Source: a bacterium (GTDB taxonomy: Bacteria > Sysuimicrobiota > Sysuimicrobiia > Sysuimicrobiales > Segetimicrobiaceae). From it: 43,273 bases of DNA. Below are positions 7,386 through 43,273 of this stretch, in pieces. Position 1 is the first letter of the stretch. Each line of letters starts with the position of its first letter. A program made the position numbers and the translations under genes. The notes beneath the pieces are model-generated. The model made no database searches, had not been told where the DNA came from, and was given only the letters and a program-made list of their open reading frames with translations. The DNA lies in NCBI GenBank assembly GCA_035691305.1, contig DASSJF010000018.1, positions 1 to 43,273 on the forward strand. Direction: 5' to 3'.

Positions 7386-9671
7386 TCAGGAGGCCGTAGT
7401 CGCGGCCTGATCCGGCGGCACCGCCGCGGGTGCGCCGACCGGCAGCAGGTGCACGACGGCCAGCGCACGGTCGTCGCGCGGACCGGGACCTGCCCAGTCG
7501 GTCACCGCCCGCATCACGGTGTCGGCCACGTCTTCCGCGGTACCGTCCCGCGCCGCCGTGACGACCGCGGCCAGGTGCGGCTCGCCGAAGAGCTCGCCGT
7601 CCGACCGGCGCGCCTCGGTCACCCCGTCCGTGTAGAGGACGATGAGGTCGCCGGGGTCGACCGCGGTTTCGTGCGAGACGTACCGTGCGTCCGGCAGAAT
7701 ACCAAGCAGCAGACCTGTCACGTCGAGCAACCGGCCCTCCGGCTCGCCGGCCCGCAGCAGCACCGGCGGCACGTGCCCCGCGCTCGCGTACCGGAACGTC
7801 CCAGCCGCGGGCATCAGCACGCCGTAGAACAGGCTCACGAACAGCGACGAGGCCGAGTCCCGCACCAGTGCCGCGTTCAGCCGGGACAGCACGTCGGCGG
7901 GATCGCGGCCGTCCTGCGCGAGCGCCTCCAACAGATATCGGGTGCGCGCGGCGAGAGTTGCGGCGGGAATGCCCTTGCCCGCCACGTCGGCGATGCCGAG
8001 GCCGACGCGCCCGTCGTCGAGCGGCAGCACCGCGTAGAAGTCGCCGCCGACCTCACGGCTCGGTTGGTACCGCCCCGCCACCGCGAGCCCGGGCAGCCGG
8101 ACGGTGGGCGCCGGCATCAGCGCCTGCTGAATGATCCGGCCGATCTCCTGCTGCCGTTCGTAGGCGCGGGCGTTGCTGACGGCCAGCGCGACACGGTCCG
8201 CAAATGTTTCGACGAGGCGGATCTCCGCCGGCCCGAACTCGCGCGGACTGCGCGCGAGGACCTGCATCACCCCGATCGTCGCGCCGCCGGCGCGGAGCGG
8301 CACGCTGAGCGCCGCCTGCACGCCGTGGTCGGCGAGGTCGGGATCGACGGCCCGCAACGAGGCTCGGTCGACAACCTGCACGGCGCGGTAGCCGCGCGCC
8401 GTGCGCCCGGCAAGCCCCTCTCCGGGGCTGAGACGCCGCACCGTTCCCGGGATGGCGTGAAATCCCTCGGGCACGGCGAGCTCGCCCGTCGTGTCGTCGA
8501 CAAACCAGATCACGCCGCTGTCGCCGTCGAGCGCCGAGACGATGCGCTGCACGAGCGGCGGCAGCAGGTCGTCCACGCGAACCGTGGAGAGCGCGACGTC
8601 GCTCACGGCCTGCACGGCGCTCATCTCGCGGACGTACCGCTCCAACTGCGCGCTCATATCGTTGAAAGCGGCCGCCAGGTCTCCGAGCTCGTCGGTGCGC
8701 CGGACGGGCACGCGGTAGCCCACCTCCCCGTGCCCCACCCGTTCCGAGGCGCGCGCCAGCGCCTGAATCGGCCGGCTCAGCTCGCCGCCGAGCACCCACG
8801 CCAGCCCAAGCCCGACGATGACGTAGGCCGAGAGCCAGATCGCCTCGGTCGCCGTCTCGCGCCGGACCGGGTCGAAGGCGGACGATTCCGGCGCCAGGAC
8901 AACGGCCGCCCACCCCAGCGACGAGATCGGCACCGCCGCGCCGATGTCGCGCCGGCCGGTCTGCGGATCCTTATAGGCGGTGATGTCGCCCACGCGGCCC
9001 TGCAACGCCGCGGCGACGGCCGGCGCCGCCCGGAGCGAGTCCGCCGGCCGCGCACCGGCCCGCAGGTCGAACATGATGCGCCCGTCGCGGTCCAGCACCA
9101 CGGCGTCCGCATCGGGCGTGGTGGCGCTTGGCGCCGACGCCGGCAGCAGCGTCAGGTCGACGACGCCGTCGACGAGCGCCACCCGTCGGTCGCCGCTCAT
9201 GATCGCGGTCGTGACTTCCACGAGCGGATGTCCGCCGACGGACTGCGGCTGCCCGACTGCCCATGGCGCGCCGTCCCGCACCTGCTCGTACGCCGCACCG
9301 CTGAGCCGCGTTCCGGGGGCCGGCGGCGGATCGCCCGCCTCGACCCGCCCGGAGAGATCGGCAAGCGTCAGGCGGCGGAACGCCGGCTCCGCGCGGCGGA
9401 TCCCGGCGAAGAGCTGCGCAATGCCGCTGACGGGGTACGGCTGCGCGGTAACCGCCGCGCCGGCGAGGCGCTCGGTGTGGACGGCGTTTGAGAAAAATGC
9501 GGTGACCTGCTCGGCAAGCGCACGGGCGAGGTCTTCTTGTGAGCGCACGACGGTGTTCCGCAGGTCCGCGGTGCGCTCGGCGTAGAGCACGATCGCGAGC
9601 ACCAGCACCGGGATCATGCAGATCAGGATCACCGCGGCGATCTTGCCGCGGATCCTGCTGCCCCGCCTCAT
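7386..9671 (-). CDS. Membrane-bound SpoIIE/RsbU-type serine phosphatase with sensor, HAMP and GAF domains
   Basis: The 761-residue protein has a transmembrane helix at about 10-28, an extracytoplasmic sensor region (about 35-270, Cache-like) and a second helix near 278-298. A HAMP domain (RPIQALARASERVGHGEVGY) comes next, then a GAF domain (about 355-510) and a C-terminal PP2C/SpoIIE phosphatase. Metal-binding signatures are GGDFYAV, GIADVAGKGIPAA, LIVLYTDGVTEAR and DDRALAVV. Such enzymes dephosphorylate a STAS-domain antagonist in partner-switching pathways. The likely substrate gene lies 15 bases upstream on the same strand. No RsbW-like kinase is nearby. Convergent with menA, with 16 bases between the stops. 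Confidence 0.92.
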   Translation of the reverse strand: MRRGSRIRGKIAAVILICMIPVLVLAIVLYAERTADLRNTVVRSQEDLARALAEQVTAFFSNAVHTERLAGAAVTAQPYPVSGIAQLFAGIRRAEPAFRRLTLADLSGRVEAGDPPPAPGTRLSGAAYEQVRDGAPWAVGQPQSVGGHPLVEVTTAIMSGDRRVALVDGVVDLTLLPASAPSATTPDADAVVLDRDGRIMFDLRAGARPADSLRAAPAVAAALQGRVGDITAYKDPQTGRRDIGAAVPISSLGWAAVVLAPESSAFDPVRRETATEAIWLSAYVIVGLGLAWVLGGELSRPIQALARASERVGHGEVGYRVPVRRTDELGDLAAAFNDMSAQLERYVREMSAVQAVSDVALSTVRVDDLLPPLVQRIVSALDGDSGVIWFVDDTTGELAVPEGFHAIPGTVRRLSPGEGLAGRTARGYRAVQVVDRASLRAVDPDLADHGVQAALSVPLRAGGATIGVMQVLARSPREFGPAEIRLVETFADRVALAVSNARAYERQQEIGRIIQQALMPAPTVRLPGLAVAGRYQPSREVGGDFYAVLPLDDGRVGLGIADVAGKGIPAATLAARTRYLLEALAQDGRDPADVLSRLNAALVRDSASSLFVSLFYGVLMPAAGTFRYASAGHVPPVLLRAGEPEGRLLDVTGLLLGILPDARYVSHETAVDPGDLIVLYTDGVTEARRSDGELFGEPHLAAVVTAARDGTAEDVADTVMRAVTDWAGPGPRDDRALAVVHLLPVGAPAAVPPDQAATTAS

Positions 9672-9686
9672 GCTGGGCTCGCCCGG

Positions 9687-10043
9687 CTAGGTCCCGGCCG
9701 CCGGGTGAACCTTCGCGAGGGCTTCGCGCTCAGTGGGGTAGAGCGGCAGCACCTGGTCGAGGCCGGTGAGCGTGAACAGTTTAGCGATCTTCGGCTGGAC
9801 CTCCGCAATCGCCATCTCCCCCCGCCGTTCGCGGACGCGCTTGAAGACGGCGGTCAGCACGCGCAGCGCCGTGCTGTCGAGATAAGTGGTGCGGCCGAGG
9901 TTGACGACGATCAGCGGCGGCGTCCGCCCGGCGGCTTTGGTCAGCGCCTCTTCGAGGCGGGGCGCCGTGTACAGATCCACCTCGCCCGCCACGTCGACGA
10001 CCGTTACATCGCCGTTGGTACGCACTGCCACATCGAGTTCCAT
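9687..10043 (-). CDS. STAS-domain anti-sigma factor antagonist
   Basis: The 118-residue protein is a single STAS domain (SpoIIAA/RsbV type): VTVVDVAGEVDLYTAPRLEE, then VNLGRTTYLDSTALRVL. The Ser in LDST (SpoIIAA has DSSG) is the position phosphorylated by the partner kinase and freed by the SpoIIE-type phosphatase, whose gene follows. Unphosphorylated antagonists bind anti-sigma kinases. ATG 10043 has GGAGG five bases upstream and is preferred over an in-frame GTG at 10055, which has no ribosome binding site. The regulated sigma factor or other target is not in the window. Confidence 0.92.
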   Translation of the reverse strand: MELDVAVRTNGDVTVVDVAGEVDLYTAPRLEEALTKAAGRTPPLIVVNLGRTTYLDSTALRVLTAVFKRVRERRGEMAIAEVQPKIAKLFTLTGLDQVLPLYPTEREALAKVHPAAGT

Positions 10044-10069
10044 CTTCGCCTCCACACGGCGCGCCGTCG

Positions 10070-10342
10070 TTAGCCGGCGTCCTGCCCCCCGGCGGCCTGA
10101 TAGAACGCGATCCCCTTATTGGCGATCGCCGACGCGACAAACCCCAGCACGAAAAGAAAGAGTCCCTTCGCCGCCACAAACAGCGCCATGTCGCCCGCCG
10201 ACCGGCCGCCCGCCGTGCCGGCCAGCGCGCCGGACGCGACCAGCTCGATGTAGGCAAGGTAGAACACGGCCACCAGCAGCAGCACGCCGAGCGCAAACAC
10301 CAGGATCCCGCTGATCCGCCCGGCCCGATCCCGCACCATCAC
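10070..10342 (-). CDS. Small membrane protein of unknown function
   Basis: The 90-residue product has two clear hydrophobic helices (about 11-34 and 52-74) separated by a Gly/Ala-rich loop, and a short polar tail. I do not recognise a family. It sits 21 bases after the phosphorylase stop and 26 bases before the STAS gene, so it is probably transcribed with the partner-switching pair. A GTG at 10342 and an ATG at 10339 are both possible starts. A role as membrane anchor or sensor for the STAS/SpoIIE module would be pure inference from position. Confidence 0.7.
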   Translation of the reverse strand: MMVRDRAGRISGILVFALGVLLLVAVFYLAYIELVASGALAGTAGGRSAGDMALFVAAKGLFLFVLGFVASAIANKGIAFYQAAGGQDAG

Positions 10343-10363
10343 CGCCGCCGTCCGCCCGACCCT

Positions 10364-11164
10364 CTATTCGATCCGCGCGGTGGCCAGCGCGTGCCCGCAC
10401 GAACAGTCCCGCGTCTTCGGCACGCGCTCGATCAGGGCCACCAGCAGGTGGCGCAGCCGTTCGTTGTTCTCCCGGAACACCCGCAGCACCGACTCGTGGC
10501 TCACCGGGTCGACCGACGGATCGCCTTCCACCCCGACGTCGTAGTCCGTGATCAACGAGATGTTCACGTAGCAGAGCTCGAGCTCGCGCGCGAGAATACA
10601 CTCGGGATAGTTGGTCATGTTGATAACCTCCCACCCCCGGTCGCGGAACCACCGGCTCTCCGACCGCGTGCTGAACCTCGGCCCCTGGATCACGACGACC
10701 GTGCCGCGGTCGCGCACCGGAATGCCCACCGCCTTCGCCGCGTCCACCGCGAGCCGGCGCAGCGTCGGACAGTACGGGTCCGCCGCCGACACGTGCGTTG
10801 TCACCGGCCCGTCGTAGAACGTGTCCGCGCGGCCCCATGTCCGGTCGACGAACTGGTCGCACACCACGAAGTCGCCGGGACGTACGGCCGCCTGCAGGCT
10901 CCCGGCCGCGCAGGGGCCGACCAGCCACTGCACCCCGAGCGATTTCATTGCCCAGACGTTCGCGCGATAGTTGATGCGGTGCGGCGGTAGGCGGTGCGTC
11001 CGGCCGTGGCGCGGCAGGAAGGCGACCGAACGCCCGGCCAGTTCCCCGACTGTCACCGTGTCGGCGGGCTCGCCGTAAGGCGTTTCGATTTTCACCTCGC
11101 GCGCGTCATCGAGGAGAGAGTAAAAGCCCGACCCCCCGAAAATACCGATCTCGGCCTGCGCCAC
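10364..11164 (-). CDS. mtnP: S-methyl-5'-thioadenosine / purine nucleoside phosphorylase
   Basis: The 266-residue enzyme cleaves methylthioadenosine (or another purine nucleoside) with phosphate to adenine and methylthioribose-1-phosphate. Family blocks are IGIFGGSGFYSLLD (phosphate loop), PRHGRTHRLPPHRINYRANV, GPRFSTRSESRWFR and VINMTNYPECILARELELCY, then ITDYD. It belongs to the PNP/MTAP trimeric class. The N-M-T and D-Y-D residues fit adenosine-type substrates, but MTA versus other 6-amino/6-oxo purines cannot be decided by eye. GTG 11164 has AAAGGAGG 8 bases upstream, one of the best ribosome binding sites in the window. It heads the four-gene minus-strand operon. Confidence 0.9.
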   Translation of the reverse strand: MAQAEIGIFGGSGFYSLLDDAREVKIETPYGEPADTVTVGELAGRSVAFLPRHGRTHRLPPHRINYRANVWAMKSLGVQWLVGPCAAGSLQAAVRPGDFVVCDQFVDRTWGRADTFYDGPVTTHVSAADPYCPTLRRLAVDAAKAVGIPVRDRGTVVVIQGPRFSTRSESRWFRDRGWEVINMTNYPECILARELELCYVNISLITDYDVGVEGDPSVDPVSHESVLRVFRENNERLRHLLVALIERVPKTRDCSCGHALATARIE

Positions 11165-40120: not shown

Positions 40121-40149
40121 ATTCTATACCCCTCCCTTTCTATTGTCAA
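40121..40149 (-). promoter_or_regulatory. Strong sigma-A promoter of topA
   Basis: A perfect -35 TTGACA (40144-40149) and TAGAAT (40121-40126, 5 of 6) are spaced by exactly 17 bases. The -35 box overlaps the dprA stop codon. Transcription would start near 40114. This is the best consensus promoter in the window and suggests topA-hslV-hslU can be expressed apart from the comM-comF-dprA genes. Confidence 0.8.
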
Positions 40150-41273
40150 ATTTGTCGCTTCCAAGACCTGGCCGACGCGACGTAGAGGCCGCCCGGCATG
40201 CGGTGGACGAGACCGCGCACCTCGAGCGCCACGAGCGCCGCCGCGGCGTCCGCGACGCGCACGCCGGCCGCCGCGGCAACGCCGTCCACGGCGCGAGCCT
40301 CGCCTCTGTCGAGCGCGGCGACCACGGCCTGTTCGGCCCGCGTGAGTCCGGGCGGAACGCCGGGGTGGCCGGCGCCCGGCGAATCGCCGGGAGACGCCCG
40401 CTCGAGCACCGCCAGGAGGTCGTCCGGATGCGTGAGAACCCGGGCGCCTATCGCCAGCAAATGGTGCGGGCCCGCGCTGCCGCGCGCGTATACGCTGCCG
40501 GGTACCGCGAAAACCGGCCGGCCCTGAGTTTCCGCCTGACGCGCAGTGATGAGCGCCCCGCTGTCCAGGTCGCCCTCGACCACCACGACCGCATCGGCGA
40601 GCCCGCTGATGAGGCGGTTGCGCGCCGGGAACGCCCCGCGCTCCGGCGGCGCGCCCATCGGGGCTTCCGCGAGGAGGGCCCCGCGCGCGAGCATCGCGGC
40701 CATGAGCGTCCGGTGCTCCGGAGGATAGGCGACGTCGACGCCGCACGCGAGGACCCCGACCGTGCACCCGCGGGCACGGACCACCGCCGCGTGGGCCGCC
40801 GCGTCGATGCCGCGCGCGAGCCCGCTCACGACGGCCACCTGAGACTCGGCGAGGGCGGACGCGAGACGCTCGGCGACGGTGAGACCATACGGCGTGGCCC
40901 GGCGCGTCCCGACGATCGCCGCCGCGGGCGCATCGTCCGGCCACCCGCCGCGCACGTAGAGCACCGGCGGCGCCGCGGCAATCTGCCGCAGCCGCACAGG
41001 GTAGGCCGGGTCGGAGCGGGTGATCACCCGCGCGCCGGCGCGTGCGGCGCACTCGAACGCGCGCGACGCGCGGCCGTCGCCGCGTGCCGCGGCGACGGCC
41101 TCCGCAAGGCCCCGCCCGATCCCCGGGACCCCGGCGAGGGCGACCGGGTCGGCGGTCGATGCGGCCTCCGCCGACCCGAAGTGCGCCAGCAGCCTCGCCA
41201 CACGAACCGCGCCGAGCCCCGGCACGAGCGATAGCGCAACGAGGCAGTGCCGCTCGCGCTCGGAGTCCGTCAC
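40146..41273 (-). CDS. dprA: DNA-processing protein DprA
   Basis: DprA binds incoming single-stranded DNA and loads RecA during natural transformation. The 375-residue protein has an N-terminal helix-hairpin-helix region (LVPGLGAVRVARLLAHFGSA and GVPGIGRGLAEAV). The Rossmann-like core shows AIVGTRRATPYG, VSGLARGIDAAAHAA, LACGVDVAYPPEHR and FPARNRLISGLADAVVVVE. A C-terminal winged-helix domain (about 310-370) follows. GTG 41273 overlaps the comF stop by 4 bases; an alternative GTG at 41285 adds four residues. Confidence 0.96.
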   Translation of the reverse strand: MTDSERERHCLVALSLVPGLGAVRVARLLAHFGSAEAASTADPVALAGVPGIGRGLAEAVAAARGDGRASRAFECAARAGARVITRSDPAYPVRLRQIAAAPPVLYVRGGWPDDAPAAAIVGTRRATPYGLTVAERLASALAESQVAVVSGLARGIDAAAHAAVVRARGCTVGVLACGVDVAYPPEHRTLMAAMLARGALLAEAPMGAPPERGAFPARNRLISGLADAVVVVEGDLDSGALITARQAETQGRPVFAVPGSVYARGSAGPHHLLAIGARVLTHPDDLLAVLERASPGDSPGAGHPGVPPGLTRAEQAVVAALDRGEARAVDGVAAAAGVRVADAAAALVALEVRGLVHRMPGGLYVASARSWKRQI

Positions 41274-42019
41274 GGCTCCCGCCACGGCTGGCGGGCGAGG
41301 ACAACGGCGTCGACCGTCGCCGCGCCGCCGTCATCGAGGATGACGCGCGCGCACTCGGACAACGTCGCCCCGCTCGTCAGCACGTCGTCGACGACCAGAA
41401 CGCGGGCGCCGCGCAGGAGCCGCGTGGGATATCCGAGCCTCACCGCACCGCGGGCGGCGCGCCACCGCTCGCGCTCGGACCGCGCCCACCGTCCCGACGA
41501 GGGTCGCCGCCGCACCAGCAGCGGAGGCGCGAGATCGTCGAGCGGCAGGCGGGGCCTCGCCGCCGGGCGCGCGTCGAGATAGATGGCGGTCAACGGATGG
41601 GCCGGCCGCCCGCCGAGATTCGCGCGGTGAAACGGTACAGGGAGCACGACGTCGTACCGCCGGCGGACGCCGGTCTCGAGTAACCACCCGGCGAGCGCGC
41701 GGCCGAGCGCCACGATCGCCCAGACCTCCACCCGCTTGGCGGCGAGGACCAGCCGCTCGACGTCGCCGCGCTTGTAACCGAGCACCACGTCCGCACGCCC
41801 GAGGCGCGACCACGCGCGCGCGCAGCCGAGACCGCGGCACCCCGGGCCGCTGCGGGGCTGCGCGCAGCGCGGGCACGCGTCCGGCCCGATGGGCACGACG
41901 GCAGGGGCGAGGCAGCCGGGCGCGATCGGATAGCCCGTTCCGCAGCACAGGCAGGGGCGAGCCTGCGGCGTCGCGTGCGCGCGAAGCACCCGCCAGAGCG
42001 CCCCCGGCGCGGGTTCCAC
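41270..42019 (-). CDS. comF: ComF-family phosphoribosyltransferase-like protein
   Basis: The 249-residue protein has an N-terminal region with paired Cys (CLCCGTGYPIAPGC, then CPRCAQPRSGPGCRGLGC), likely zinc ligands. A type I PRTase core follows: VVLPVPFHRANLGGRPAHPL and the PRPP loop VLVVDDVLTSGATLSECA. In Bacillus, ComFC is needed for DNA uptake; its exact reaction is not known. GTG 42019 starts GEPAPG-like MEPAPGALW and lies 12 bases after the comM stop. The dprA start overlaps its stop. Confidence 0.93.
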   Translation of the reverse strand: MEPAPGALWRVLRAHATPQARPCLCCGTGYPIAPGCLAPAVVPIGPDACPRCAQPRSGPGCRGLGCARAWSRLGRADVVLGYKRGDVERLVLAAKRVEVWAIVALGRALAGWLLETGVRRRYDVVLPVPFHRANLGGRPAHPLTAIYLDARPAARPRLPLDDLAPPLLVRRRPSSGRWARSERERWRAARGAVRLGYPTRLLRGARVLVVDDVLTSGATLSECARVILDDGGAATVDAVVLARQPWREP

Positions 42020-42031
42020 CGGTCGGGCCCG

Positions 42032-43000
42032 TCAGAACGGCGCCGCCGCGCCGGACTGCATCGCGCGGTCCAACGTCCGGTAGCCGATCGCCTCGGCCAC
42101 GTGCGGCGCGCCGATGGACGCGTCGCCGCCGAGATCGGCGATCGTGCGGGCCACGCGCCCGAGACGGTGGTACGCGCGTGGACTCAGCCCGAGACGGTCG
42201 ACGGCCTGCCGGAGCAGCGCGCGGGACTCCGGCCCGAGGACGCAACACGCCCGGGCCGCGGCCACGGGCATCGTGGCGTTGACCGCGTCCGCGAGTCCCA
42301 GAGCCGCGGCGCGCGCCGATTGCGCCGCCCGGGCGCGCGCCACGCGGGCCCGCACATCCGCGGTCCGCTCCGCCGGCCCCGCCGCGGCCAGCTCGGCGCC
42401 GCTGAGCGCGGGCATCTCGACGTGGAGGTCGATGCGGTCGAGCAGCGGCCCCGAAACCCGCGCGCGGTAGCGCGCCCGCTGGGACGGCGTGCAACCGCAG
42501 GCACGGCGCGGGTCGCCGAGATACCCGCACGGGCACGGGTTCATCGCGGCGACGAGCATGCACCGCGCCGGAAGGGCTACCGCGCCGGCGGTCCGGACTA
42601 TGACGATCCGGCCCTCCTCGAGCGGTTGGCGAAGTGATTCCAGCGCGTCGTGGTGAAACTCCGGGACTTCGTCGAGAAACAGCACCCCGAGGTGGGCAAG
42701 GCTCACTTCTCCGGGCGATGGCGGCGAGCCGCCGCCGACAAGCCCCTGCACGGTCGTCGCGTGGTGCGGCGCCCGGAACGGACGCAATGCGATCAGCGGC
42801 GCGGACGACGGCAGCCTGCCGGCCGCGCTGTAGACCCGCGTGACCTCGAGGGCCTCGTCTCGCGACAGCGGCGGCAGGATCGCCGGCAGCCGTTGCGCCA
42901 GCATCGTCTTGCCGGTGCCGGGCGGGCCGATCAGCAACAGATCGTGGGCGCAAAGTAACGTGCTCGGGAAGGCCAAATGAGCGGCTTCCCGCCGATTCAC
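42032..43000 (-). pseudogene. comM: 5'-truncated comM (YifB/ComM AAA+ ATPase)
   Basis: The frame has 322 residues, about 190 fewer than normal ComM/YifB (about 510). It begins MNRREAAHLAFPSTLLCAHD, and only from about AHDLLLIGPPGTGKT (Walker A) does it match the family. It continues with RPFRAPHHATTVQGLVGGG, LGVLFLDEVPEFHHDALESL, MNPCPCGYLGDP, RYRARVSGPLLDRIDLHVEM and SPRAYHRLGRVARTIADLGG. The N-terminal Lon-S16-like/ChlI domain is missing, and the upstream DNA does not encode it on either strand. ComM is a helicase for branch migration in transformation and is unlikely to work without that domain. The match stops sharply near 42945, so this looks like an insertion or rearrangement. Confidence 0.8.
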
Positions 43001-43053
43001 TTAGTGGACCCGAGGGCGTCGACGCTCGATCTGTTCTATCGGTCCGCTAAGTG
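42998..43053. repeat. Inverted repeat beside the comM junction
   Basis: CACTTAGTGGACC (42998-43010) and GGTCCGCTAAGTG (43041-43053) are inverted copies that agree at 12 of 13 positions, separated by 30 bases. The repeat lies between the truncated comM and the new plus-strand gene. It could be the end of a mobile element, a recombination site, or an operator/hairpin for the plus-strand gene. I saw no transposase in the window. Confidence 0.7.
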
Positions 43054-43091
43054 TCGTCACATGGCGCAGGATCGTTGGGAGGGATTCCGGC

Positions 43092-43273
43092 ATGACAGGT
43101 GAGGCGGCAGAGCGGGAAACGGTCATCCGCTGGAGTGACGCCGACGACGGGATCGCGGTCGTCTGGACCGCGCAGCGTCCGATGATCACGCGGCTCCAGC
43201 GCATCCGGGGCGCCGAGCGGGCAGAGGTTCACCGGACAGACGGAGGCGCCTGGACCGGAGAGACGTGGCGGGT
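43092..43273 (+). CDS. Hypothetical protein, 5' part (cut by window edge)
   Basis: An open frame starts at ATG 43092 and is still open at the window end (60 residues). It has GGGAGGGA 7 bases upstream, a strong ribosome binding site. The protein reads MTGEAAERETVIRWSDADDG, then IAVVWTAQRPMITRLQRIRG and a Trp-rich part (GGAWTGETW). I do not recognise its family; the V-W-T-A-Q-R-P pattern recalls short hypothetical proteins seen in phage-like or mobile regions, but this is weak. It runs opposite to all genes from 13138 to 43000, which marks a break in gene order. Confidence 0.6.
   Translation, partial: MTGEAAERETVIRWSDADDGIAVVWTAQRPMITRLQRIRGAERAEVHRTDGGAWTGETWR

Follow-up and report, generated by a model that had tools for sequence, protein, structure and literature searches.

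What interrupted the comM gene at the end of this contig, and what kind of DNA was it joined to? The window, meaning the whole stretch of DNA analysed, is the complete contig C18 (43273 bp), one of 87 contigs in a draft genome (G000) that is 96% complete, and dprA, comF and a truncated comM are adjacent on its minus strand. The initial annotation had read the locus as a comM gene broken by a foreign element, possibly a Tn7-like island of the AbaR/Tn6022 type.

The comM fragment and the intact gene in relatives

40146..41285, minus strand: dprA, an intact neighbour (DNA_processg_A and DprA_WH domains)
41270..42019, minus strand: comF, an intact neighbour (Pribosyltran domain)
42032-43000, minus strand: truncated comM open reading frame of 322 aa, whose frame continues past 42951 through element DNA
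42032..42951, minus strand: C-terminal part of comM from Walker A onward, severed from the ChlI domain (Pfam profiles and identity to intact ComM)

Residues 19-312 of the truncated ComM are intact (running from 42951 down to 42032 in plus-strand numbering) and Pfam matched both Mg_chelatase, at profile positions 20-206/207, and Mg_chelatase_C, showing that the ATPase core is complete from Walker A on and the C-terminal domain retained, with nothing left of ChlI. The fragment is 76-77% identical to the intact ComM of two genomes of the same genus (G001 and G002), and the similarity stops at 42951 when compared with G002, or at about 42946-42951 when compared with G001, in good agreement with the earlier claim that the C-terminal half was kept and ended abruptly near 42945. 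A simple frameshift was ruled out because comM similarity ends at the break in the DNA as well. The N-terminal domain had been reported as absent upstream, and indeed no ComM-type ChlI domain was found in the window or in the whole G000 assembly, where the only ChlI matches were a RadA-like ORF (C86) and an 838-aa ORF (C30) which we read as putative Lon-like. A full-length ComM query against G000 returned only the 42032-42951 fragment, and these two whole-assembly searches rule out an intact second copy of comM in this genome. The break in comM is thus confirmed as real.

The initial annotation had also proposed a search for the missing N-terminal half and a comparison with the comM loci of close relatives. 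The missing half is nowhere in the G000 assembly. In both same-genus genomes comM is intact, with an open frame of 538 aa in G001 and of 547 aa in G002. The gene order dprA-comF-comM in G002 is that of the window, and the genes next upstream of comM in G002 match another contig of G000 (C12), collinearly and with 79-87% identity. C12 ends about 2.5 kb before the expected start of comM, so the assembly contains the chromosome on either side of the insertion point and brackets it; judging from this alignment, what is absent from the bin is the N-terminal half of comM, about 2.5 kb and the element. Elsewhere, no comM was found in G004, G006, G013, G021 and G034, several of which are more than 95% complete, and comM may therefore be lost repeatedly in this lineage.

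DNA beyond the break

42952..43273, no strand assigned: terminal part of the inserted element, as far as the contig runs, without comM similarity (GC 65.5%)
42998..43053, no strand assigned: inverted repeat CACTTAGTGGACC / GGTCCGCTAAGTG within the element (12/13 match)
43092..43273, plus strand: first part of a small phage-type gene that runs off the contig (60 aa, open; about 100 aa in relatives)

The contig ends at 43273, and only about 320 bp of foreign DNA are visible past the break. The GC content here is 65.5% compared to 72% for the window, a value matched or undercut by 8% of equal-sized window tiles, which gives mild support to a foreign origin. The plus-strand gene that had been described as foreign is present at 43092, with the description resting on these few hundred bases up to the contig end. 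It is 73% identical to a gene on contig C26 of G002, which stands near integrases, and its relatives in G006 share about 40% identity with that G002 gene; the family occurs in 3 of the 43 genomes of the order, and each relative lies near integrase or serine recombinase genes. A match to phrog_1709 was clear for one G006 member and weak for the window fragment (E = 0.005), and tblastn with the 43092 protein against IMG/VR, GTDB r220 contigs and INPHARED gave no relatives at the thresholds used, so that the phage link of this gene comes only from the relative genomes and the PHROGs profile. These comparisons support the DNA past the comM break belonging to a phage-like pool.

The surroundings of these relatives are as follows. 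On C26 of G002 (L055, 5318-6043) a gene for a short protein similar to the sliding clamp of DNA polymerase III is flanked by a serine recombinase and a tyrosine integrase, in what is apparently a mobile element. On C34 of G006 (L085, 9040-11213) the 43092-gene relative immediately precedes the gene for a 516-aa large serine recombinase (LSR).

The 13-bp inverted repeat was exactly as claimed, with arms at 42998-43010 and 43041-43053 that match at 12 of 13 positions around a 30-nt spacer. The arms start 47 and 90 bp past the break, both of them within the element, and this position rules out the repeat as a transposon terminus. Inverted repeats of equal quality were found in 13 of 306 equal-sized window tiles, making the repeat weak evidence when taken alone. 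The arm motif CACTNAGTGGAC recurs in G001, on contig C8, at the same distance from the junction DNA described below, and the repeat is most simply read as a possible operator, or a hairpin in the leader, of the 43092 gene.

Interruptions of comM at the same codons

42925..42957, no strand assigned: putative hybrid attachment site, made up of a comM half-site and an element half-site (17-bp identity to G001:C8; same register as the G024 junctions)
G024:C23 (L099), 8491-10721: N-terminal half of comM and an LSR gene
G024:C31 (L100), 1-300: junction of the C-terminal half of comM

G024, a genome of the same order that belongs to a different family, also has a split comM, with both junctions present and the break no more than a few bp from that in the window. 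The N-terminal half on C23 ends ...GGHNVLMV, and the C-terminal half on C31, preceded by about 270 bp of unrelated DNA, starts ...VHTILMVGPPG. Directly past the N-terminal half is a gene for a 562-aa LSR, read towards comM, with Resolvase, Recombinase and zinc ribbon domains; it matches the phrog_95 integrase, is related to SPbeta YokA and the TP901-1 integrase, and is 43% identical to the LSR on C34 of G006. The last 40 or so residues of its open frame come from antisense comM DNA, which places the end of the recombinase gene at the attachment site or very close to it. Alignment to intact comM shows a short core common to the two G024 junctions, read as ATGGT, and no long direct repeat of comM sequence was seen at them. 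With both junctions and the LSR beside the N-terminal half, G024 is a cleaner example of a split comM than the window.

Among 80 comM loci surveyed across bacteria, one, from a Syntrophaceae genome, is interrupted at these same codons, so that the break point is common, within a few bp, to the window, G024 and this genome. The interrupting element in the Syntrophaceae MAG (PLMV01000069.1, L140, 1-3030) encodes a 482-aa protein matching phrog_4756. Contig C54 of G038 starts about 25 bp before the same comM point, and this may be another interruption of the gene or chance.

Only one hybrid junction is present in G000, and it is in the same register as both G024 junctions. The 17 bp at the junction (42941-42957) are identical to G001:C8:724-740, and the next 55 bp or so also match there with 75% similarity as far as 43009. 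As this copy stands away from comM in G001, it is probably a remnant of the element's end or a further copy of it. Two exact 17-bp matches in virus contigs were discarded, both being within unrelated coding sequence and not extending further, as were matches with 1-2 mismatches in relatives other than G001:C8, which look like chance in unrelated sequence; no copy of the junction was found at the LSR loci of G001, G002, G004, G005, G009, G011 and G038. The element half-sites of the window and G024 (TTTGCGCCCACGAT and TTTCGTCCACACC) resemble each other and also the codons of intact comM that they replace (GGCGGGCACAAC); by analogy with G024, the exchange point is expected at about 42930-42934. 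The likeness of element and comM half-sites around the exchange point, the position of the inverted repeat 47 bp inside the element and the LSR adjoining comM in G024 give the junction the character of a recombinase attachment site and not of a transposon end.

Probable site-specific integration and its alternatives

Given the observed break, the intact gene in relatives, the junction DNA shared with G001 and the same-site interruption beside an LSR in G024, we favour, with a probability of about 80%, the reading that the contig ends in a phage-like element integrated at comM by a site-specific recombinase, most likely an LSR of the phrog_95 / SPbeta-YokA type. The chromosomal attachment site would have been the stretch of comM that codes for H-N-x-L-x-[VI], immediately 5' of Walker A, and the recombinase would have joined the element's site to it, leaving the C-terminal half of comM and a hybrid site on C18. 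The other hybrid site, with the N-terminal half of comM and probably the recombinase gene, would then lie on unbinned or unassembled DNA, and ComM would presumably be off while the element is integrated. No recombinase gene was found on C18 and no PF07508 recombinase in the bin, and the enzyme of the window element is therefore inferred; by analogy with G024 the element would carry an LSR, and it is presumed to be a prophage and not an integrative conjugative element.

A tyrosine integrase could instead have driven this kind of event, as two of the 43092-gene relatives (on G002:C26 and G006:C44) are near tyrosine integrases, and the bin has seven Phage_integrase matches and no LSR. However, the sole case here with an enzyme beside a split comM is the LSR of G024, whose junctions lack a long direct comM repeat, and the third relative of the 43092 gene (on G006:C34) adjoins an LSR similar to that one, so we regard this variant as unlikely. 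A chimeric contig end, with comM joined to unrelated DNA by the assembler, might be suspected from a break about 330 bp from a contig end in an 87-contig assembly. Chance joining would hardly be expected to place the break no more than a few bp from the interruption in two other genomes, or to bring in DNA of the genus's mobile pool in the G001:C8 register, and the N-terminal half of comM is nowhere else in the assembly; an artefact of this kind is very unlikely.

Of the initial interpretation, the insertion of foreign DNA into comM has held up, given the intact relatives, the two genomes cut no more than a few bp from this point and the phage-like DNA past the break, while the Tn7-like kind of element has not. 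AbaR/Tn6022 islands of Acinetobacter insert in comM by Tn7-like transposition, and they share their target gene with the window, where an inverted repeat does lie near the junction. The likeness goes no further than the target gene, as there is no sign of Tn7-like transposition here: the repeat is internal and no better than those elsewhere in the window, there is no terminal repeat at the junction, the visible 320 bp or so of element contain no tni or tns gene, and the half-sites are alike, as in site-specific recombination, with an LSR at the same site in G024. We consider such an island extremely improbable.

The splitting of a competence gene by an LSR prophage has a parallel in the Listeria A118-type prophage, which lies in a different gene, comK, and undergoes regulated excision. 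By analogy with what is reported for comK, the comM site could act as a reversible switch, with the element leaving when conditions are favourable to DNA uptake, so that ComM is restored and competence is coupled to the state of the prophage, but we think this improbable.

Integration at this gene has been described elsewhere. Among predicted site-specific LSRs, 12.4% have magnesium chelatase/ATP-dependent protease genes as their target (Durrant et al. 2022, PMC10083194); the target gene family (a common annotation of yifB/comM), the splitting of the gene and, in G024, the LSR at the site are shared with that set, whereas the host lineage differs, and no recombinase is seen in the window; the likeness is one of target gene. 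Wolbachia sr1WO prophages also target the magnesium chelatase gene (PMC9203015); they are serine-recombinase prophages flanked on both sides by parts of that gene, in an unrelated host. The comM/yifB gene is thus already known as a widely used insertion site and the window is a fairly ordinary case of it. The loci described here add independent cases of mobile elements landing in a natural-transformation gene, at conserved codons beside the ATPase loop, and they indicate that a draft-genome contig ending at comM can signal an integrated element and not assembly noise.
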